36,824 nt of DNA from a virus: positions 1-36,824 of the IMG/VR virus record IMGVR_UViG_3300047994_000169; one strand, given 5' to 3'. Under the pieces are notes generated by a model. The model was given only the letters and a program-made list of their open reading frames with translations, was not told the origin of the DNA and made no database searches. How positions within the stretch are numbered: position 1 is the first letter of the stretch; the number at the start of each line of letters is the position of its first letter. The translations under genes were made by a program, and so were the position numbers. Below are positions 25,075 to 34,273 of the stretch, piece after piece.

Positions 25075-25854
25075 ATGTCTCTAGTACAACTTGCTCACAA
25101 CAAAGATGCTGTTAATTTTCAAAAAGCTTTAACCGAAAGGCTAGAAGCCAAGGTTGGTCAAGTATTGGCCGAGACCAAGATTGAAATCGCAAGCACTCTT
25201 CTTGAAAATCCAAACGGCATTACTAGCTCTGCTGGTGGTGTTAAGACTAAGGCCGAGGGTGGCATGGTTGGTAAAGACCGTCTTCCTGATACAACCGATA
25301 TCAAGTCATCTGAAGGAATTGCGCCTCCAGGTGGTACACACATTTCTGGTGTAACCAAAAAGCCTTCTCCACATGAAAAAGGTGGAAGGAGTGTTCCTGG
25401 TGACAACAGTACCTTTGACGCAAAGATGCCTGGTAAGACCAACGAAGAAACTGCACCAAAGCCTGAACCACATGAACAAAAGTCTGCTGGCAAGGGAAAG
25501 CGTGCTCTTCGTATGATGATGAAGAAGAAGTACGACAAGAAGCAACATGATGAATCTGTACAGGTGATTCCCCACGGTGAAGTAAACGAAAAAATTATTT
25601 CTCCAGGTACAGTTGAACACATGTCCCATGCTGTTCACGCTTGTGCAACCGGTCATTGTCCTGCTGTGTCACACCGTGGAACGTTTACTCACTATGAACA
25701 CCCACATTATAGCATTCATAAGGACCATGGTGGAATTCATCCTGACAAGGCTGAGCATCATTATTACGTAGCCGGTGCTGGTGGAATGCATCAATTTTCT
25801 GTTCACCACAGCAGCAAAGGTGTTGACGTTAAGCACGTTAAGCAGGTTTCTTAA
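25075..25854 (+). CDS. Putative prohead core protein (gp67 position), His-rich C-terminus
   Basis: A 259-residue product in the place of T4 gene 67 (after portal). The N-terminal helix (KDAVNFQKALTERLEAKVGQ, then KIEIASTLLEN) resembles the start of small core proteins in T4-like phages. A KGKRALRMMMKKKYDKKQ block (about 141-158) recurs as KGKRAARFKFKKKYDKQ in the next gene. The last 80 residues are rich in His (HYEHPHYSIHKDHGGIH). L/I-x-E sites that the prohead protease might cut include VLAE and VNE. The role as head-core or packaged protein is inferred. Confidence 0.6.
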   Translation: MSLVQLAHNKDAVNFQKALTERLEAKVGQVLAETKIEIASTLLENPNGITSSAGGVKTKAEGGMVGKDRLPDTTDIKSSEGIAPPGGTHISGVTKKPSPHEKGGRSVPGDNSTFDAKMPGKTNEETAPKPEPHEQKSAGKGKRALRMMMKKKYDKKQHDESVQVIPHGEVNEKIISPGTVEHMSHAVHACATGHCPAVSHRGTFTHYEHPHYSIHKDHGGIHPDKAEHHYYVAGAGGMHQFSVHHSSKGVDVKHVKQVS

Positions 25855-25868
25855 TTAGGAGAACCTTA

Positions 25869-28157
25869 ATGAGTTCATTCAAACAATTTTTAGAAGAAAA
25901 GAATCTAGCCATTCATGTAAAGAAAGGCGGGTTTCATGCTTGGTTAGGTAAGTCTCCTGACGAACCAATCACTGCGGCAGATATTGCCAAGGGTAAGGCT
26001 GCTGGTGGTCATGCTGAAAAAATGGCCATTTTTGCTCAAAACTTTGGACATGTTGGTGAAGAAGTTCTTGATGAAGCATCTCCAGTAACTGGAACCAGAA
26101 TGGTGTCTAGGCACGGAGTTGTTGGTTCTGCGCACCATGCGGAAGTTCGTTACAACAAAGATTACGAAGAATACTCTGTTCACCACTACGCACACGGTAA
26201 GCACATGGGTGAAGGCCCAGTTTCTTATCACGGTAACGATAAAGAAGATGCTAAGAACACCGCAGAACATGAAGTAAAAAGACATGCTGTGAAAGAAAAC
26301 GTACAAGAATCATCTGACGAGATTCTAACCCATACGAAGCGTCACACTGATCTCGATGCTTGGAAAACTGACGCTGCGCGTCATGGGTATGTTGTTCACA
26401 ATGACACTATATTTAAAGATCATTATGTTGCACATGTAAAAGGTGAAAAACCATACGGAAAGCATAGTCGTGGAAGTTTTAACACGACACTTCAAAAGGG
26501 CGTAGTGCATTCTATCAAAGAAGACACAATCAACGAATTGAGCAAAAAGACTCTCGGTTCTTACATCAACAAGTCCGCTAATGAAGTTCATAGCGCTGGA
26601 TGGGCACAAGGAAAAGCTAAATCAATTTATGCTCATGACAGATCAACAAAGTGGGCCGATAAGCGTAAAAATGGTATCGAAACAGCTACTAAGAAATTGA
26701 CTAAGGAAGAAACAACGGTTAACGAAAAGATCACTGACAGTAAGGAACAGCTTGAAAGGGCTATTGCTGCTGCTGAACGTAAAGCACAAGCTGCCCCATC
26801 TAGCCAAACATCTTCTTATGTTGAAGCTTTGAAGAAAGCATTGCGTCGTATCAAAGGTCGTAAGAACATTCGTGCCGATGAAGTCGGTTTGAAGGCTGAA
26901 GAAACCGAGAAGCATGAGCCAAACCACAAGGAACACGGTAAGGGCAAGCGTGCCGCACGTTTTAAGTTTAAGAAAAAATACGACAAGCAGAACGAAGGTA
27001 CTGAGTACTTTACTGAAGAACTTGGTCCAGAACATCATGCAGCATTACACCGTTATGCAACAAAGCACGGTCGCACTTGGAAAAACAAGTTAAACACTGA
27101 TTGGGAAAAGGGTCACACTCATGGTGATGACACTGCCGCTCTTCGTCAGGTTCGCAACAACATTGGACCATCTGGTCTTATGAAATACAAATTAGACCCT
27201 AGCCGTGACGATCATCCAAACAATGCTTGGAAAACAAGAATACATTCAAAAGGTGAACATGATGTCAAGGAAGAAGTACAACCATTAAGCGAACTTTCAA
27301 AGAAAGTTCTTAAGTCTTATCGTGAAAAAGCACTCAATCAATTGAAGTCTGGTTCAGGTCCTTTAAACGGCAAAGAAGAAAAGCGTTTCAATGGTGTCGC
27401 TAAGTCTGTAAAAGAAGAAATTGATGAAGGTCTTTTTGAATTGATTTACGAAGCCGATCAAGCTTTCCACACACAAGATGAGTTTCTTAACCACGCACAA
27501 TCTCGTGGTCACAAAATTAAAACAATTCTTCGTGGTGCCAACGCACATCTTCATGCTAAAGATCCTAGCTCAGGCAAAACACATGGTCTATTTGATGTAA
27601 AGAAAGAACATGGTGTTTATTCAACAATGCCTATTCACGTTGGTGAAGGTGTTGAAACTATCGATGAACTTTCAAGAACTACTTTAGCTTCTTACGTTCG
27701 TAATGCAGCTTCTGATATGGGAGATCGTCAGGTCGATCATATGAGATCTAAACATGGAAGTGAAGAAGCAAACAAGCATTTGCACAAATTTAGCAAAAGG
27801 TATAGGGGAATTCTTAGAGCTACAAATCATAAAAGATTAGCAAAAGAAGAAACCATCACCGAAGAAATGTCAGATGCTGCACATGAACTTGTGCTTCATG
27901 CCGACTATGATGCTCATTTGCACCACAGTTCTCATCAGCCAATTATTTCTAATTTGAAAAAGAAAGCCAAGAAAGGTTCTTACGATCCAGAAAAGGCAAA
28001 AAAACTTTGGAAGTATCACGCTGACCGTGCTGCACAATCTTATCACAAACAACATGGCGATAAGCACACTGCATGGCATCACATGTTTACCACACATGAT
28101 CGTCATCAGGCAGCTGCCCATTGGGAAGCACACCACAGGGATGAAGTTCACGAGTAA
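25869..28157 (+). CDS. Large modular internal head polyprotein (putative)
   Basis: A 762-residue basic, His-rich product. It starts MSSFKQFLEE, ten residues ending L-E-E, like the T4 internal-protein capsid-targeting leader that gp21 removes. Further L/I-x-E sites are VLDE (69), INE (223), LSE (475), IDE (520), IYE (528), IDE (600) and ITE (665). Three of these precede an LSKKTLxSY-type box (224, 476, 601). The segment from 666 (HELVLHADYDAHLHHSSHQP, SYDPEKAKKLWKYHADRAAQ) resembles a family usually found as a separate short protein. I infer a polyprotein packaged in the prohead and cut into modules. Module functions are unknown. AGGAG precedes the ATG. Confidence 0.6.
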   Translation: MSSFKQFLEEKNLAIHVKKGGFHAWLGKSPDEPITAADIAKGKAAGGHAEKMAIFAQNFGHVGEEVLDEASPVTGTRMVSRHGVVGSAHHAEVRYNKDYEEYSVHHYAHGKHMGEGPVSYHGNDKEDAKNTAEHEVKRHAVKENVQESSDEILTHTKRHTDLDAWKTDAARHGYVVHNDTIFKDHYVAHVKGEKPYGKHSRGSFNTTLQKGVVHSIKEDTINELSKKTLGSYINKSANEVHSAGWAQGKAKSIYAHDRSTKWADKRKNGIETATKKLTKEETTVNEKITDSKEQLERAIAAAERKAQAAPSSQTSSYVEALKKALRRIKGRKNIRADEVGLKAEETEKHEPNHKEHGKGKRAARFKFKKKYDKQNEGTEYFTEELGPEHHAALHRYATKHGRTWKNKLNTDWEKGHTHGDDTAALRQVRNNIGPSGLMKYKLDPSRDDHPNNAWKTRIHSKGEHDVKEEVQPLSELSKKVLKSYREKALNQLKSGSGPLNGKEEKRFNGVAKSVKEEIDEGLFELIYEADQAFHTQDEFLNHAQSRGHKIKTILRGANAHLHAKDPSSGKTHGLFDVKKEHGVYSTMPIHVGEGVETIDELSRTTLASYVRNAASDMGDRQVDHMRSKHGSEEANKHLHKFSKRYRGILRATNHKRLAKEETITEEMSDAAHELVLHADYDAHLHHSSHQPIISNLKKKAKKGSYDPEKAKKLWKYHADRAAQSYHKQHGDKHTAWHHMFTTHDRHQAAAHWEAHHRDEVHE
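26529..26588 (+). repeat. LS-box copy 1 (INE-LSKKTLGSY)
   Basis: Residues 221-240 of the polyprotein. The box [IVL]-x-E-L/I-S-x-[KT]-[TV]-L-x-SY recurs at 27285, 27660, 28979 and 29909, in three different genes, each time just after an L/I/V-x-E triplet. Confidence 0.75.
27285..27338 (+). repeat. LS-box copy 2 (LSE-LSKKVLKSY)
   Basis: Residues 473-490 of the polyprotein; same pattern as copy 1, followed by a basic helix (REKALNQLKS). Confidence 0.75.
27660..27719 (+). repeat. LS-box copy 3 (IDE-LSRTTLASY)
   Basis: Residues 598-617 of the polyprotein; same pattern, followed by VRNAASDMGDR. Confidence 0.75.
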
Positions 28158-28159
28158 CC

Positions 28160-29371
28160 ATGAAGAAATTCAGCGATCTACTCAAGGAAATAACCGAATC
28201 AACAGCATTTAACGACCCACCGGTAATGCTAGTGTTGCGTCGTAAAGCTATTCGTACATTTCCTGGTGGTCAAAGTATAGCTCAATATACAAATGACAAT
28301 TTGAAGATCGATGTAGCTATTCCTTACACACCTGGTCAGTTGGGTAAAAAGCACACAAACATAGCAACAACTTCAGAAGAAACTCATCCAAAATTTACTA
28401 AAGTAAGAATCAACAAACCAGATGATGAATATCATGGTGAAGTTGGTGCCGTCACTGGACATTTCTCTAAAGATCCAAACAAGCATTTTGTCGAATTCTC
28501 TGATGTTAAAGGCAATAAGAGAGTTTATAAGGGTCACGAATTGACAGCAGAATCAATGATGACTATAGATGAAATTAGGGATTTAGGGAAAGATTCACGA
28601 GATATTAATGCAGGTTTGGGTCATAGGTATTCACATCTTCGCGTAAAAGAAAACCCAAAAGCGCATAAGGCTAATTCTAGCTATGCGGCTTGGACCGTTC
28701 ACGGTAAAAATGATGGTGATAAAAAAGGTAAAGCAATAGCCACATTGGTACACAAACTTAATACTAAATTTGAAGAAACTCAAATCGGTATTGATGAAGC
28801 CATGTCACCTGAACTTAAAAAGATTCGCAAAGAACGTGCAATGTTCAAGCGTGATCTTTCTCGTCAAGAAGACAATTTTGACACAGCAAAACAGCGTCTA
28901 GACTGGGCCAAAAAGGCTCTTGCTGGTCACATAAAAAAGCACGGAAAGACGTTAAACCCATTGGGTGAAGAGATTGTTAATGAACTTTCACAGAAAACTC
29001 TCAAATCATACATCCACAAAAACCTTGATGCACACGGTAAAGATAGGAAAGGAAGAGAAACACAAAGAGCTTTTGGATTTTATCGTGCTATCAACAAAAT
29101 AAAAAAAGAAGAAGTTGAAAACGATACTATTATGGAAGCAACAATTCATTCTTTGCATACTATTATGAAAACACAACATCCTGCAACTGTTCGTTTCAGA
29201 GATGGTTCAACAGCAATGATCGATCATCCAACAGCGCATCAAGTAATGCACCTTCACGGTAAGGTCAATCGTCAGAACAAGAAGAAGATAGAAAGCTTAA
29301 TAAATAGTGGTGCTAGCGGAATCAAAAAGATTAGCGCATTCATCGCTAAACATATGAAGGTAGGAAAATAA
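28160..29371 (+). CDS. Second putative internal head polyprotein
   Basis: A 403-residue basic product starting MKKFSDLLKE, again ten residues ending L-x-E as in a capsid-targeting leader. Internal sites of the same type are IDE (138), IDE (213), VNE (275) and IME (326). The segment 24-60 (LRRKAIRTFPGGQSIAQYTN) resembles phage proteins found near head genes; an LS-box lies at 276-290 (LSQKTLKSYIHK). Residues 214-265 form a charged helix. It follows the large polyprotein by two bases. Packaging and processing are inferred from the leader and sites. Confidence 0.55.
   Translation: MKKFSDLLKEITESTAFNDPPVMLVLRRKAIRTFPGGQSIAQYTNDNLKIDVAIPYTPGQLGKKHTNIATTSEETHPKFTKVRINKPDDEYHGEVGAVTGHFSKDPNKHFVEFSDVKGNKRVYKGHELTAESMMTIDEIRDLGKDSRDINAGLGHRYSHLRVKENPKAHKANSSYAAWTVHGKNDGDKKGKAIATLVHKLNTKFEETQIGIDEAMSPELKKIRKERAMFKRDLSRQEDNFDTAKQRLDWAKKALAGHIKKHGKTLNPLGEEIVNELSQKTLKSYIHKNLDAHGKDRKGRETQRAFGFYRAINKIKKEEVENDTIMEATIHSLHTIMKTQHPATVRFRDGSTAMIDHPTAHQVMHLHGKVNRQNKKKIESLINSGASGIKKISAFIAKHMKVGK
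28979..29035 (+). repeat. LS-box copy 4 (VNE-LSQKTLKSY)
   Basis: Residues about 274-292 of the second polyprotein, the same motif as the three copies in the gene before. Confidence 0.7.
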
Positions 29372-29372
29372 C

Positions 29373-29870
29373 ATGGCACCAAACGTACCAGAAGTTCAAA
29401 TTTTGTTTGATACAGGTGATAAGACTGTGGTCAAGGTTGTCGGTTATTTTACCGCTGCAACTAACAGTAACACCAAGATCGTTCAAGCTAATACACTCAG
29501 CTATGCAAACTCTAGTTTGCCTTGCATTCTTTCAGCAACAACCGTGCAGTACGCAGCAGGTTTTGCTAACGGATATTGCTCTATTCAATGGGCAGCTGGT
29601 GGAGCAGCAACAAACAACGATATGTTGATTTTGGGTGGTAAAACATCTAGCCAATTTGTTGCCTACATGCCAAACCCTCTTGCATCAAACACTGCAAACC
29701 TTGCCGGTGGCAGTGGTGATATCAACTTGTTTATCGAAGGCGCTGAACCGTTCGACTCATTCTCTTTGATCCTTACATTGATTAAAGAAGGTGGTGCTGG
29801 TGGTGGTTACGCAAATGTTTACGCACAATACAACGATAACTTCTTTGGATTGGCTAAGCAGCCAGCTTAA
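29373..29870 (+). CDS. Putative virion structural or decoration protein
   Basis: A 165-residue, beta-rich product with low charge, many Ala/Asn/Thr/Gly and no basic clusters, unlike its neighbours. Parts such as QILFDTGDKTVVKVVGYFTA and AGGSGDINLFIEGAEPFDSF look like strands of a beta sandwich. It has no leader and no clear L-x-E site. A head decoration or other capsid-surface role is a guess from position. It starts one base after the previous stop. Confidence 0.5.
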   Translation: MAPNVPEVQILFDTGDKTVVKVVGYFTAATNSNTKIVQANTLSYANSSLPCILSATTVQYAAGFANGYCSIQWAAGGAATNNDMLILGGKTSSQFVAYMPNPLASNTANLAGGSGDINLFIEGAEPFDSFSLILTLIKEGGAGGGYANVYAQYNDNFFGLAKQPA

Positions 29871-29872
29871 CA

Positions 29873-30265
29873 ATGAAACTTTTTAGGGCATATCTCAGAG
29901 AAGATAGGCTAGATGAAATAAGCAAAACAACACTTGCTTCTTACATCAAAAAGTCTAGCAAAGAGATTGCTCATCATGCATCAGCTAAGGAAAAGGTTCC
30001 GAAGAAAGATATTGAAGCTAATGCTTATCATAAAGGTAAGTTGAAGAAGAGATTGGCAGGTGTTAGGAAAGCAACTACTAAGCTTAAAAAACAAGCTAGT
30101 GTAGTTAAATTACCGAAACCAAAACCAGTCAAAATAGCTAAACCAAAGAAGGTTGCTAAGAAAAATAGTCTAGCTGGACAAGGTGTTTATAACCTTATTA
30201 GCAGGGGCATTTCTTCAGGTATCAAGAAAGGCACTATTGGAATAGTTCGAAAGGTTTTGAAATGA
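29873..30265 (+). CDS. Short basic internal head protein (putative)
   Basis: A 130-residue, very Lys-rich product starting MKLFRAYLRE, a third ten-residue L-x-E leader, then DRLDE (second site at 15) directly before an LS-box (ISKTTLASYIKKSSKEI). Residues 60-105 are a Lys/Pro/Val tail (KLPKPKPVKIAKPKKVAKK) like DNA-compacting proteins. I infer that it is packaged with the DNA after leader removal. It overlaps the next gene by four bases. Confidence 0.6.
   Translation: MKLFRAYLREDRLDEISKTTLASYIKKSSKEIAHHASAKEKVPKKDIEANAYHKGKLKKRLAGVRKATTKLKKQASVVKLPKPKPVKIAKPKKVAKKNSLAGQGVYNLISRGISSGIKKGTIGIVRKVLK
29909..29962 (+). repeat. LS-box copy 5 (LDE-ISKTTLASY)
   Basis: Residues 13-30 of the short basic protein. 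Here the box stands almost at the N-terminus, right after the leader. Confidence 0.7.
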
Positions 30266-30525
30266 GTTTTAAGGCACATGCAGGAGCCAGGATAAAGCGA
30301 ATCAGATCGCGTATTCGTGGTGGAAAGATACAACGAAACATCAAGAGAAGTGGTGTCAAAGGATACGCTTTGCGTGGTGGTAAGTTGGTACGTATGTCTG
30401 CCGCAGAAAAACTACATAGAAGAATGGGTGCAAGAAAAGGTAAGTTGAAGAGAAGGGCAAAAGCCGCTAGATCATTGATCAAAAGATTAAGAAGTTTAAA
30501 ACGCAGGGATAGCTTGGGATTGTAA
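30262..30525 (+). CDS. Small Arg/Lys-rich prohead core protein (gp68 position)
   Basis: An 87-residue, extremely basic product (HAGARIKRIRSRIRGGKIQR, then NIKRSGVKGYALRGGK, and a final KRRAKAARSLIKRLRSLKRR). Small basic proteins of this kind sit directly before the prohead protease in T4-like phages, in the position of T4 gene 68, a minor core protein affecting head shape. The match is by position and composition. It overlaps the previous gene (ATGA). Confidence 0.6.
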   Translation: MSFKAHAGARIKRIRSRIRGGKIQRNIKRSGVKGYALRGGKLVRMSAAEKLHRRMGARKGKLKRRAKAARSLIKRLRSLKRRDSLGL

Positions 30526-30527
30526 AA

Positions 30528-31175
30528 ATGAAACTATTAACAGAAGCATTCGATTCAAGAGTTCTTATCGAAGAAGGTAAGGACGGTAAACCTAAGCAGT
30601 ATTTTATTGAGGGTATCTATATTCAATCTGAAGTACGCAATAGAAACAATCGTATGTACAAGTACGAAAGCCTTAAGCCAGAAGTTGACCGTTATATTAA
30701 AGAAATGATCGACACTAACCGTGCCGTTGGTGAATTAGGTCACCCAACTAGCCCAACTATTAATTATGATCGTGCTAGCCACAAAATCCTTTCTTTGAAA
30801 GAAGACAAATACAATTGGATCGGTCGCTCTAAGATCCTTAGCACCCCAATGGGTGAATGCGTCAAACATTTAATTGATGACAACGTTCAATTTGGTACTT
30901 CAACCCGTGGTATGGGATCTCTTAAAGAATCTAATGGTTTGAACATCGTCCAAAGTGATTATCACCTTGCTACTGCCGGTGATATTGTTTCAGATCCTTC
31001 TGCTCCAGATGCTTTTGTAAATGCCATGATGGAAGGTCGCGAATGGATATGGGCTAATGGGGTGATTGTCGAGGCGGATATTGCTGAAATGAATAAGACA
31101 ATCAAAGAAGCTAAACAACATCAATTAGAAGAAGTTGCTTTGTCTATCATGCAAAATTATTTGAGCAAGCTTTAA
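30528..31175 (+). CDS. 21: Prohead core protease (T4 gp21 homologue)
   Basis: A 215-residue product (T4 gp21 is 212), the serine protease that sits in the prohead core, cuts scaffold, capsid and internal proteins after L/I-x-E, then destroys itself. Signature parts: RNRNNRMYKYE, GELGHPTSP with the catalytic His (H72), FGTSTRGMGSL with the Ser (S125), and ATAGDIVSDPSAPDA with a possible third residue (D152). Its own N-terminus reads LLTE-A, a possible self-cleavage site. The GIY-YIG gene starts on its last base. Confidence 0.93.
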   Translation: MKLLTEAFDSRVLIEEGKDGKPKQYFIEGIYIQSEVRNRNNRMYKYESLKPEVDRYIKEMIDTNRAVGELGHPTSPTINYDRASHKILSLKEDKYNWIGRSKILSTPMGECVKHLIDDNVQFGTSTRGMGSLKESNGLNIVQSDYHLATAGDIVSDPSAPDAFVNAMMEGREWIWANGVIVEADIAEMNKTIKEAKQHQLEEVALSIMQNYLSKL

Positions 31176-31627
31176 TGAATGATTGTTATGTATACGCTCT
31201 AGTCGAGCCATTCAATGATGTCCCATTCTACTTTGGTAAAGGAACTGGCGATAGAGCATTTGTACATGGCAGAACAAGAGATAAGCACAATAAGGATAAA
31301 TGTAGAATTATTAATACTATTAGATCTTTGGAACTTGAACATCGAGTCGAATTTGTAGCCACCGAGTTGTCTTCAGAAGAAGCTTTGAAACTAGAGAAAT
31401 TCTGTATAGAACGATTCAGATTGATGTATCCAAACTATGAATTAACAAACAAAGATAACATGATTCCTGATAGAACAGGAACCAGAATGTCCGTAAAGGC
31501 TATAGAAAAGATTAAGAATTGGCACAAGCGAAACAAGCAAATCCCTTGGATAAAGGGTAAGACGATAGCTAATGGTGGCCTACCATCAAATCACGGCGAA
31601 TTGATTTCCGCTGGGATGAAGAAATAG
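31175..31627 (+). CDS. GIY-YIG homing endonuclease
   Basis: A 150-residue product with the GIY-YIG core in the form YVYALVEP...PFYFGKGTGDRAFVHGR (residues 5-33, Arg27 and His31 in active-site positions) and a following EEALKLEKFCIERF with the metal-binding Glu. The C-terminal part (KAIEKIKNWHKRNK) is like a NUMOD3 DNA-binding repeat. Its ATG overlaps the protease stop (TAATG). A free-standing selfish gene inserted between protease and scaffold genes is the best reading. Confidence 0.8.
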   Translation: MNDCYVYALVEPFNDVPFYFGKGTGDRAFVHGRTRDKHNKDKCRIINTIRSLELEHRVEFVATELSSEEALKLEKFCIERFRLMYPNYELTNKDNMIPDRTGTRMSVKAIEKIKNWHKRNKQIPWIKGKTIANGGLPSNHGELISAGMKK

Positions 31628-31684: not shown

Positions 31685-32899
31685 ATGTCTCACAAGTCAC
31701 TAACCGAAGCAGCAGCAGAAGTACTAAACAAGTCTCGTACCGATTCTCCAAGAATGCCTATGCAAGACCTTGAAACGGTACGTGGACCGCAACCACAAGC
31801 ACAAGGTCGTGTAGATCTTGGTGGTGCAACTCATAAGGACCCACAGGGCAATGAGATTGGTAAGGTAACCGCTGCACACCGTGGTGTTGCAACACCTCCT
31901 GGCGAATCTGCTACACAAGATAGCAATGAGCCAATGCACGATTTGAAGATTGCCGGTGGTGGTCGTGAAGCAGCTGCAAAAGCTTCTCTTCAAGGTGCTG
32001 GCGCACATACATCTCCAGATGAAAACAATGGCGAAGGCGTATCTACTGCCGGTCATGAATACATGCATCCTACTAAGGAAGAATTTGAACTTACTGACGA
32101 AGAGCTTGCAGAAGCAAAGGCAGAAAAAGTTGCCAGAATGAAAGAAAAGATGAAGGAAAAGGACGTTAAGGAAGATATCGATGCGATTCTTTCTGGCGAA
32201 ACATTCTCTGAATCTTTCAAGACCAAGCTTACCACTATTTTTGAAGCCGCAGTTCTTGCCCGTGCCGTTATGGTTGCAGAAGAACTTGAAGCCGAAATCA
32301 TTGCAGCAGCAGAAGAATCTGTTGAAGAAATCACTGCTGAAATGGAAGAACAGGTCGAAGAATATTTAGACGCTATGGTCAACGAATGGAAGGAAGAAAA
32401 TCAAGTTGCTATTGAGTCTGGTTTGAAAGCCGAAATCGTTGAAGATTTTCTTAGCGGTTTGAAGAATTTGTTTGAAGATCACTACATCGAATTGCCTTCT
32501 GAGAAGGTAGATGTTGTTGAAAGCTTGACACAAGAAATTGCAGAACTTACAGAAAAGCTAAATAACAGCATCAATGCACAAATTGATCTTGGAAAGAAGA
32601 TCAACGAAGCAAAGAAGGAAGAAATCCTTGTTAAGGTTTGTGAAGGTCTCACCGCCACACAAGCAGTCAAGGTAAAGACTCTCGCAGAGGGAGTTGAGTT
32701 CGTCACAGAAGACGATTACAAGAAAAAGTTGACCGTAGTTCGTGAGAGCTATTTCAACAAGGTGAAGCAGGACAATCAGCAACCAGCAACAGTTAATTCT
32801 ATTGCTCTAGCAGAAAGTGAAGTTCCTGCCCAGAACGAGACGGAAAATTCCCCTCTTATGGACGCTTATGTAAATGCTATTTCTAGGACTCAACTTTAA
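31685..32899 (+). CDS. 22: Prohead core scaffold protein (T4 gp22 homologue)
   Basis: A 404-residue acidic, helical product (T4 gp22 is 269). The C-terminal half, with VEDFLSGLKNLFEDHYIELP and the following SEKVDVVESLTQEIAELTEK coiled coil, is typical of gp22; the N-terminal 130 residues are an extra, less ordered part. Many L/I-x-E protease sites are visible (LTE-A near the start, LAE-A, IFE-A, LAE-S), as needed for its destruction during maturation. It sits between protease and capsid genes as in T4. Confidence 0.9.
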   Translation: MSHKSLTEAAAEVLNKSRTDSPRMPMQDLETVRGPQPQAQGRVDLGGATHKDPQGNEIGKVTAAHRGVATPPGESATQDSNEPMHDLKIAGGGREAAAKASLQGAGAHTSPDENNGEGVSTAGHEYMHPTKEEFELTDEELAEAKAEKVARMKEKMKEKDVKEDIDAILSGETFSESFKTKLTTIFEAAVLARAVMVAEELEAEIIAAAEESVEEITAEMEEQVEEYLDAMVNEWKEENQVAIESGLKAEIVEDFLSGLKNLFEDHYIELPSEKVDVVESLTQEIAELTEKLNNSINAQIDLGKKINEAKKEEILVKVCEGLTATQAVKVKTLAEGVEFVTEDDYKKKLTVVRESYFNKVKQDNQQPATVNSIALAESEVPAQNETENSPLMDAYVNAISRTQL

Positions 32900-32920: not shown

Positions 32921-34273
32921 ATGTATCTTTCAGAAAATCTACAAAAGAAGTGGTCTCCAGTTATGGACCACCCAGGTCTTGCACCAATTGGTGACAAGTA
33001 CCGTCGTGCCGTCACTGCCGTTATTCTTGAAAACCAAGAAAAGGCTGCTCGTGAAGAAGCACGTATTAACAACGGATTCTTGACAGAAACTGCTCCAGCA
33101 ATGGCAGCAGGTACTGGTGGTTACAGCGGTTCTGCCGCAGCAGCTGGTCCAGTAGCCGGTTTCGACCCAATCTTGATCTCTCTTGTTCGTAGGTCTTTGC
33201 CTAACTTGATCGCATACGACGTATGCGGTGTTCAGCCAATGACTGGTCCAACAGGTTTGATCTTTGCAATGCGTTCTAAGTACACCCTTGCTAACGACAC
33301 CACCTTCGGTGTTGAAGCTTTGTACAACGAAGCAAACAACCAGGTGTCTGGTAACGGTACCTTCAGTCCATTTGACGGTACACAGAACACCAACCCAGCA
33401 AACTCAAGCTTTGGCTTGGCTAACACTGGTTACGGTTTCCCAACAGGTGTTGGTGAAGATCTTGGCGGTGCATACGCATGGGGAACCATGGGTTTCAGCA
33501 TCGAAAAGGTTACAGTTACTGCAAACACTCGTGGTTTGAAGTCTGATTACACCTTGGAACTTGCACAAGACTTGAAGGCAATTCACGGTCTTGACGCAGA
33601 AACCGAGTTGAGCAACATTCTTTCAACCGAAATTTTGGCCGAAATCAACCGTGAAGTTATCCGTACAATCTACGCAACAGCTAACGTTGGTGCGCAGTTC
33701 GGTTCTAACGTCGCTGGTATCTACAACCTTGCATTGACTGGTGGTGACACCGCAGGCCGTTGGCAGGTTGAAACTTACAAGTCTTTGATCATGCAAATTG
33801 AGCGTGAAGCAAACAAGATTGGTAAGGACACTAGGCGTGGTAAGGGTAACATGCTTATCTGCTCTACTGACATCGCATCTGCGTTGGCAATGAGTGGTTT
33901 GCTTGATTACCAGTCTGCATTGACCAACAACACCAACTTGAACGTAGACGACAGTGGCAACACTTTCTGCGGTACCTTGTTCGGTCGTATGAAAGTTTAT
34001 GCCGATCCTTACTCTGTATCTGGTGCTGACTACGTAACCGTTGGTTACAAGGGTCAAACTGCATACGACGCAGGATTGTTCTATTGCCCTTACGTTCCTC
34101 TTCAGATGGTTCGTGCTATCGACCCTAACACCTTCCAGCCAAAGATCGGCTTCAAGACTCGTTACGGTTTGGTTGCAAACCCATACGCAGGTGGAACTAA
34201 CCAGCAACTTGGTGCTATCACAGCTAACACCAACTGCTACTACAGGAAGTTCATTGTTATTAATTTGAAATAA
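32921..34273 (+). CDS. 23: Major capsid protein (T4 gp23 homologue)
   Basis: A 450-residue product (T4 gp23 is 521) with the HK97-type coat fold of T4-like phages. The N-terminus (LQKKWSPVMDHPGLAPIGDK, then AVILENQEKAA) and the RRSLPNLIAYDVCGVQPMTG and GPTGLIFAMRSKY blocks are family hallmarks. The maturation site is very clear: GFLTE at 52-56 matches the T4 gp23 cleavage site, so the first 56 residues should be removed. GAGGAA precedes the ATG; an intrinsic terminator follows. Confidence 0.96.
   Translation: MYLSENLQKKWSPVMDHPGLAPIGDKYRRAVTAVILENQEKAAREEARINNGFLTETAPAMAAGTGGYSGSAAAAGPVAGFDPILISLVRRSLPNLIAYDVCGVQPMTGPTGLIFAMRSKYTLANDTTFGVEALYNEANNQVSGNGTFSPFDGTQNTNPANSSFGLANTGYGFPTGVGEDLGGAYAWGTMGFSIEKVTVTANTRGLKSDYTLELAQDLKAIHGLDAETELSNILSTEILAEINREVIRTIYATANVGAQFGSNVAGIYNLALTGGDTAGRWQVETYKSLIMQIEREANKIGKDTRRGKGNMLICSTDIASALAMSGLLDYQSALTNNTNLNVDDSGNTFCGTLFGRMKVYADPYSVSGADYVTVGYKGQTAYDAGLFYCPYVPLQMVRAIDPNTFQPKIGFKTRYGLVANPYAGGTNQQLGAITANTNCYYRKFIVINLK

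Follow-up and report, generated by a model that had tools for sequence, protein, structure and literature searches.

Why would a distant relative of phage T4 carry, between its portal and prohead-protease genes, three genes whose products open like the internal head proteins of T4 and then run on, in two of the three, as long strings of small domains? The genes, g762, g403 and g130, lie in a 36.8-kb fragment from IMG/VR (record IMGVR_UViG_3300047994_000169, classed as a virus), which was analysed over its whole length of 36,824 nucleotides and is called the window here; judged by its genes, the phage is a member of the T4 superfamily. We suggest that g762, g403 and g130 are probably internal head proteins of the T4 type, built as polyproteins and processed by the gp21-type protease. 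An earlier note on this DNA had described three consecutive genes with ten-residue T4-style leaders and internal protease sites.

Leaders of the T4 capsid-targeting type

The three genes, with the leader of the first, are as follows (aa, amino acids; pI, isoelectric point).

25869..28157, + strand: g762, 762 aa, modular; pI 9.2, 8.8% His, ten [LI]xE triplets
25869..25898, + strand: g762 leader MSSFKQFLEE (F4, F7, L8, E10), T4 capsid-targeting type
28160..29371, + strand: g403, 403 aa, modular; leader MKKFSDLLKE; pI 9.8, 5.7% His
29873..30265, + strand: g130, 130 aa, the minimal member; leader MKLFRAYLRE, LDE-15, one D module (residues 16-74) and a basic tail

In T4 the ten N-terminal residues of the internal protein (IP) IPIII are enough to have a protein packaged, positions 4 and 7 serving targeting and positions 8 and 10 processing; Asp at position 10 prevents processing and leaves targeting intact (PMC9026906). 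The leaders of g762, g403 and g130, which had been read correctly, follow this rule, with aromatic or hydrophobic residues at positions 4 and 7 and [LI]xE at 8-10. T4 IPII and IPIII both open MKTYQEFIAE, and IPI opens MKTFKEF and has its site later, at ITE-19. The pattern M..[FY]..[FYLIMVW][LI].E is found in 3 of 70 gene-like open reading frames (ORFs) of the window against 0.018 expected from shuffling, and the resulting Poisson p of ~1e-6 is descriptive because the pattern was composed after these leaders had been seen (it was set before the S-CREM2 test given below). The proteins are indeed basic or His-rich, g762 and g403 being His-rich and g130 (pI 10.6) Lys-rich (23%).

Leaders of this kind recur in relatives. 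The relative L001, whose flanking head DNA is ~96-98% identical to the window, has MGSFKQFLEE on its version of g762, and L002, with a protease 72% identical, has MKSFKQYLSE on a gp68-like gene and MGVFKEYLNE on a 230-aa gene. For g403, the form considered beside MSSFKQFLEE and MKLFRAYLRE was MKKFSDLLKEITE; its leader may span 13 residues, because it is ITE-13 (LTE-14 in L002), not LKE-10, that is kept between the two phages. The claim of exactly ten residues thus stands insofar as all three proteins have LxE at 8-10, and may fail for the length of the g403 leader.

The location also fits. The genes lie, as had been noted, between a T4-type portal gene (PF07230, E 3e-164) on one side and a gp21-type protease gene (PF03420, E 7e-31) on the other, an interval that holds six genes, these three among them, and that in T4 itself holds genes 67 and 68 only. 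They are not consecutive, as a leaderless acidic gene at 29373-29870 intervenes between the second and the third. The window gp21 keeps the catalytic H85 and S140 of T4 gp21, and FLTE at residues 53-56 of the capsid protein aligns with the T4 maturation site FLTE-65, so that the protease likely shares the site preference of its T4 counterpart. From the position rule, the prohead-core location and the same leader on virion-detected enzymes of S-CREM2, we consider it very probable that the leader works as a capsid-targeting sequence, and its removal by gp21 is only a little less so.

Modules and the placement of putative cleavage sites

Comparison with relatives supports the view that g762 and g403 are built like polyproteins, as strings of small exchangeable domains. 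Their modules are listed below; HMM stands for hidden Markov model and pLDDT for predicted local distance difference test.

25899..26075, + strand: module A, FHAWLGK domain, residues 11-69, ends LDE-69; fourth in L002; pLDDT ~85 at residues 20-50
26076..26300, + strand: module B, residues 70-144; phrog_7884 match, E 3e-9
26301..26522, + strand: module C, residues 145-218, ends IKE-218; missing in the L001 allele, present in L002
26538..26714, + strand: module D1, residues 224-282, two-helix hairpin after INE-223; HMM, AlphaFold
26997..27266, + strand: module G, residues 377-466; related small proteins on 204 plasmid records
27294..27416, + strand: module D2, residues 476-516, after LSE-475; HMM
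27453..27668, + strand: module H, residues 529-600, flanked by IYE-528 and IDE-600
27669..27854, + strand: module D3, residues 601-662, after IDE-600; HMM
27864..28154, + strand: module I, residues 666-762, after ITE-665, helical
28985..29113, + strand: D module of g403, residues 276-318, after VNE-275; HMM
29138..29368, + strand: conserved C-terminal domain of g403, residues 327-403, directly after IME-326

That the modules act as units follows from three comparisons. The L001 allele of g762 is without module C and carries another insert near residue 377, its indels being module-sized at the DNA level with breakpoints in the codons for KE, NE and KEE; in L002 module A is moved from first to fourth place with the order of B and C unchanged; and L109 differs from L110 by one additional D-like module with boundaries ending in Glu. 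(Domain edges from blastp were rejected as module breakpoints, being over-extended, and the DNA-level breakpoints were used instead.) Whole modules are acquired, dropped or moved, so that the presumed cargo changes quickly.

The plasmid relatives of module G come mostly from Agrobacterium, Rhizobium and Pseudomonas, and those listed are hypothetical proteins, one of them annotated as SANT/Myb-like. Module I has no relatives in the phage or plasmid records searched and module A no match in the phage records, against which tblastn with the whole of g762 gave a single short match only. Neither the whole proteins nor single modules matched a named Pfam or NCBIfam family above cut-off, library searches with g762, g403 and g130 returned no gp67- or gp68-type family, and the full g762 model found nothing with E < 0.001 in a fold search of the PDB. 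Searches of Pfam, NCBIfam and PHROGs (PADLOC was outside the search) linked none of the modules to a defence or counter-defence family, and we regard a putative anti-defence role of the modules as improbable.

One recurring element is the D module, present in three copies in g762, one in g403 and one in g130 by HMM. Other carriers are Caulobacter phage Cr30, whose gp064 has four HMM-scored copies, Prochlorococcus phage P-TIM68, Synechococcus phages S-SKS1 and BUCT-ZZ01, cyanophage P-RSM6 and about 30 loci of IMG/VR. The consensus begins with [LIV]xE and LSKxTLGSYxxKA and, after a loop whose length varies, ends with KRxxGIxxAxxKLxKE; AlphaFold models the module as a two-helix hairpin (mean pLDDT 81.7), for which the PDB fold search gave no match with E < 0.001. 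An [LIV]xE triplet stands immediately before the module in 53/53 classifiable non-redundant copies (two further envelopes were unclassifiable and are outside this count), a figure that is somewhat inflated since the consensus query pattern VDELSKKT may favour VDE modules and the HMM spans the triplet; D modules found as extra copies within the same proteins are independent of that query. The module can also be part of prohead-core proteins, one case being

L112:157-1566: gp22-type scaffold (T4_CASP, E 5e-58) with two D modules fused at its N-terminus

and a weaker case BUCT-ZZ01, where a D module is probably fused to a gp67-like protein. Elsewhere, one small host protein (SYILTPNGR..., FPELTEKYIEENYE) bears a D module in both L114:411-842 and L098:528-983, before the protein's own C-terminal part in one and after it in the other, as if D behaved like a mobile module.

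Where the sites stand is more informative than how many there are. The [LI]xE counts are 10 in g762 against 6.2 expected (p 0.08), 6 in g403 against 3.3 (p 0.09) and 2 in g130 against 0.8 (p 0.18), or 18 against 10.6 when pooled (z 2.5), and ordinary ORFs are enriched 1.37x for the same spacing. In the AlphaFold model of g762, which was made from nine sequences only and has a mean pLDDT of 54.5, 9/10 of the [LI]xE glutamates fall in segments with pLDDT < 50 compared with 22/51 of the other glutamates (Fisher p 0.007); when VxE is added the figure is 16/18 (p 0.0007). The sites had been listed correctly for the most part, except that '275' of g403 is V-N-E and that 218 and 524 in g762, 13 and 270 in g403 and 15 in g130 had been overlooked.

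Site 326 of g403 is kept in distant phages. The domain that follows it corresponds to the entire mature part of 104-110-aa proteins encoded in the same genomic slot by many marine far-T4 phages, with the openings MKTFKEFRES... or MKTYKEFRKS.... In these homologues the domain is preceded by LEE, LTE, LKE, LGE or LME, in some by VKE, so that the hydrophobic P3 and the P1 Glu are kept and the middle residue is free; some have IIE or IFE with one extra residue ahead of the domain. Conservation of the triplets in homologues is thus seen at site 326, before every classifiable D module, and at the leader or its site in L001 and L002. Of the earlier polyprotein idea, the modular build with [LI]xE between domains holds up, and the number of sites is barely above chance; the structure predictions that it had called for gave a hairpin for D and linker positions for most sites, within the limits of a shallow alignment.

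The same leaders on virion-detected enzymes

In phages with D modules, leaders are also present on HAD-type phosphatases, CTP_transf_like nucleotidyltransferases and DUF6267 proteins, the last at three loci.

L152:3598-4815, - strand: DUF6267 (PF19782), leader MKTFNSFLKE
L147:4645-5838, - strand: DUF6267 (PF19782), leader MLTFKTFLKE
L114:2569-3801: DUF6267 (PF19782), leader MKSFHSYLSE

The leader-bearing DUF6267 proteins contain KYDG or KWDG with QGD further on, which we take to recall nucleotidyltransferase/ligase motifs, and the three kinds of leader-bearing protein might together form a packaged nucleic-acid end-repair kit.

Cytidylyltransferase-like proteins have repeatedly been detected in cyanophage virions (PMC3037559, PMC9602691, PMC10665884), and the virion proteins of S-CREM2 identified by mass spectrometry include gp6, gp14, gp154 and gp160 (PMC10665884). 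Leaders are found on the first three of these, a SAM hydrolase, an APH-like kinase and a cytidylyltransferase (MKDFDSFLEE, MKRFDAFLTE and MKNFSSFLTE). Under the strict pre-set pattern, 3/48 virion proteins and 0/167 non-virion proteins of S-CREM2 carry the leader (p 0.011; four virion proteins, gp85 and gp128-130, are outside this count), and counting gp13 (MKDLHSFLTE) post hoc gives p 0.002. Gp12, a Cas9-annotated virion protein, has a similar stretch, LRFASFMAE, some 25 residues in.

L161:3837-5081 (- strand), L161:10579-12846 (- strand) and L162:24608-25468: loci of the S-CREM2 leader enzymes and gp12

Other cytidylyltransferases vary. Those of S-RIM2 and S-CAM22 start MKKFSAFLTE and that of ACG-2014f MRSFLTFLTE, F replaces L/I in those of S-B43 and P-TIM68, and inspection of the N-termini found no leader in P-HM2 or Cr30. 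The virion also holds a modular protein, as gp160 of S-CREM2 (detected by 7 peptides) has LxE between its modules, some of which it has in common, at 80% and 66% identity, with gp159 of P-TIM68, a D-module protein. Residues 17-70 of gp160 (L162:28342-29235) match the N-terminal part of the major head protein family phrog_696 (E 5e-10).

Internal cargo or prohead core

The leaders, the conserved protease and capsid site, the modular build and the placement and conservation of the sites can be read directly from the DNA; proteolysis, packaging and delivery are what we infer. The leader would dock each protein on the prohead core, and the gp21-type protease would cut after it and also, to some extent at least, after [LI(V)]xE in the interdomain linkers. 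That several internal sites are cut is reasonably likely, and the products, small basic domains several of which are helical-hairpin copies, have a similar chance of being left in the head beside the DNA. From there they would plausibly enter the host, the odds of injection being about even.

Several points weigh against this. VxE, frequent before D modules, is outside the T4 consensus, and not every breakpoint triplet in L001 is [LI]xE. The g762 counterpart in L002 opens MLTEASY and has no ten-residue leader, any leader there being much shorter. Site counts were dropped as evidence, being near chance with control ORFs likewise enriched. When a looser leader of 9 or 10 residues is allowed, the S-CREM2 contrast drops to 3/48 versus 2/167, and the authors of that study could not exclude contamination of the virions (PMC10665884).

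The surrounding genes bear on the alternatives. The head cluster runs gp18, gp19, gp20 (the portal), g259, g762, g403, g165, g130, g87, gp21, a GIY-YIG-like ORF, gp22 and gp23, and its members from g259 onwards, apart from the leader genes, are:

25075..25854, + strand: g259, 259 aa, gp67-like N-terminus and His-rich basic extension
29373..29870, + strand: g165, 165 aa, acidic, lacking both leader and D module; lies between g403 and g130 but is outside the set
30262..30525, + strand: g87, 87 aa, very basic (pI 12); resembles the C-terminus of T4 gp68
30528..31175, + strand: gp21-type prohead protease, PF03420; catalytic residues conserved
31175-31627: GIY-YIG-like ORF between gp21 and gp22, labelled from reading the sequence
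31685..32899, + strand: gp22-type scaffold, library match; acidic, pI 4.6
32921..34273, + strand: gp23-type major capsid protein, FLTE at residues 53-56

The N-terminal stretch of g259 matches T4 gp67 (blastp E 0.001) and phrog_1064 (prohead, E 0.007), and the similarity of g87 is to the basic C-terminus of T4 gp68 (E 1e-5). Because such genes flank them, g762, g403 and g130 appear as additions inside the prohead-core gene set. The gp68-like gene of L002 (12106-12384) has the leader MKSFKQYLSE and g87 opens MSFKAHAGARI without one, as though a leader had been trimmed away or gained. Two endonuclease-like ORFs of L002 (4850-5284 and 5991-6512) lie between tail and portal genes; together with the GIY-YIG-like ORF they are probable homing endonucleases at differing spots of the same cluster.

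This setting, and above all the fusion of D modules to gp22, makes a core role the strongest rival. The modular proteins would then be scaffold-like, building or sizing the prohead core, and gp21 would shred them at LxE sites meant for demolition, with most peptides leaving the head, much as in T4, where the core proteins undergo many cuts and leave the head for the most part (PMC9026906). Their place among gp67- and gp68-like genes and the weak gp67-like fusion in BUCT-ZZ01 agree with it. However, the three proteins are basic like T4 internal proteins whereas the scaffold here is acidic, a module content that differs among close relatives would be odd for a core that determines size, the sites avoid confidently modelled domains, module G has stand-alone relatives on plasmids, and gp160, a modular protein of similar type, stays in S-CREM2 virions. 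We therefore consider a pure core role unlikely, although the two roles are compatible, as a core-binding module could bring other modules along.

A second alternative, less likely still, is that the proteins are packaged and lose the leader alone, the rest remaining one flexible multidomain protein like the injected polyvalent proteins, with internal LxE as linker composition or part of a domain motif. The near-chance counts and the enriched spacing in ordinary ORFs would suit this, and the Glu ahead of the D module could be structural. Yet the placement of sites in linkers, the invariant Glu with a hydrophobic P3 before the D module and the free P2 at site 326 all fit a protease site better than a constraint of the fold. 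That these are ordinary disordered, tail or decoration proteins outside the head with coincidental leaders is very improbable and already disfavoured, for although most of g762 is modelled at low confidence and most modules have no annotated family, three leaders were found against 0.02 expected, and they recur in homologues and on virion-detected enzymes.

Neither capsid-targeting leaders nor gp21 processing is new, and the cargo reading that we prefer can be set beside described systems. Like T4 IPI, IPII and IPIII, the proteins have a leader of about that length with the same key positions, would be small basic domains when mature, would need a gp21-type protease and differ in content from phage to phage (PMC9026906), and g130, a leader and one small basic domain, is near to a plain T4 internal protein; the T4 proteins are single and short, however, whereas g762 and g403 have many modules, repeated domains and many further sites, and no sequence homology of g762, g403 or g130 to them was found beyond the leader. 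T4 gp67, gp68 and gp22 share the gene neighbourhood and the several LxE sites per protein cut by gp21, but the proteins here are basic, not acidic, with shuffled modules and a T4-type leader. Polyvalent proteins (Iyer et al. 2017, PMC5512222) are likewise single polypeptides of numerous unrelated domains, presumed to be injected together with the DNA; those are large and enzymatic, some with their own metallopeptidase, whereas the domains of g762 and g403 are small, mostly lack an assigned activity, are separated by prohead-protease-type sites and follow a capsid-targeting leader, and none of the 131 described polyvalent enzymatic domains was recognised with Pfam or NCBIfam in whole proteins or modules. 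In the giant phages SPN3US and phiKZ, ejection proteins of the head are packaged along with the DNA and have long propeptides, each of which a gp21-related protease cuts several times after Glu (PMC10052503, PMC5694885), but there the cuts destroy the propeptide and here the sites separate folded, exchangeable modules. We found no description of capsid-targeting leaders in cyanophages or of prohead-protease cargo polyproteins in the literature covered, which did not extend to subscription papers and so leaves absence unproven.

If our reading is true, T4 capsid targeting would not be limited to single internal proteins and would, in far relatives, also serve cargo polyproteins that are modular and change fast. 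More tentatively, many T4-superfamily phages of water-dwelling bacteria may load their heads through one address system, in which leader-borne enzymes with a role in host takeover (nucleotidyltransferases, kinases, SAM hydrolase, HAD phosphatases and the ligase-like DUF6267) and modular polyproteins would make up a protease-cut cocktail delivered with the DNA. This offers a possible answer to why cytidylyltransferases, kinases and SAM hydrolase recur in purified cyanophage virions. From the leaders one would expect each protein to be packaged specifically and to gain a defined new N-terminus. The module set would, in turn, supply small phage proteins not yet described, whose action, if any, would fall in the first minutes of infection.

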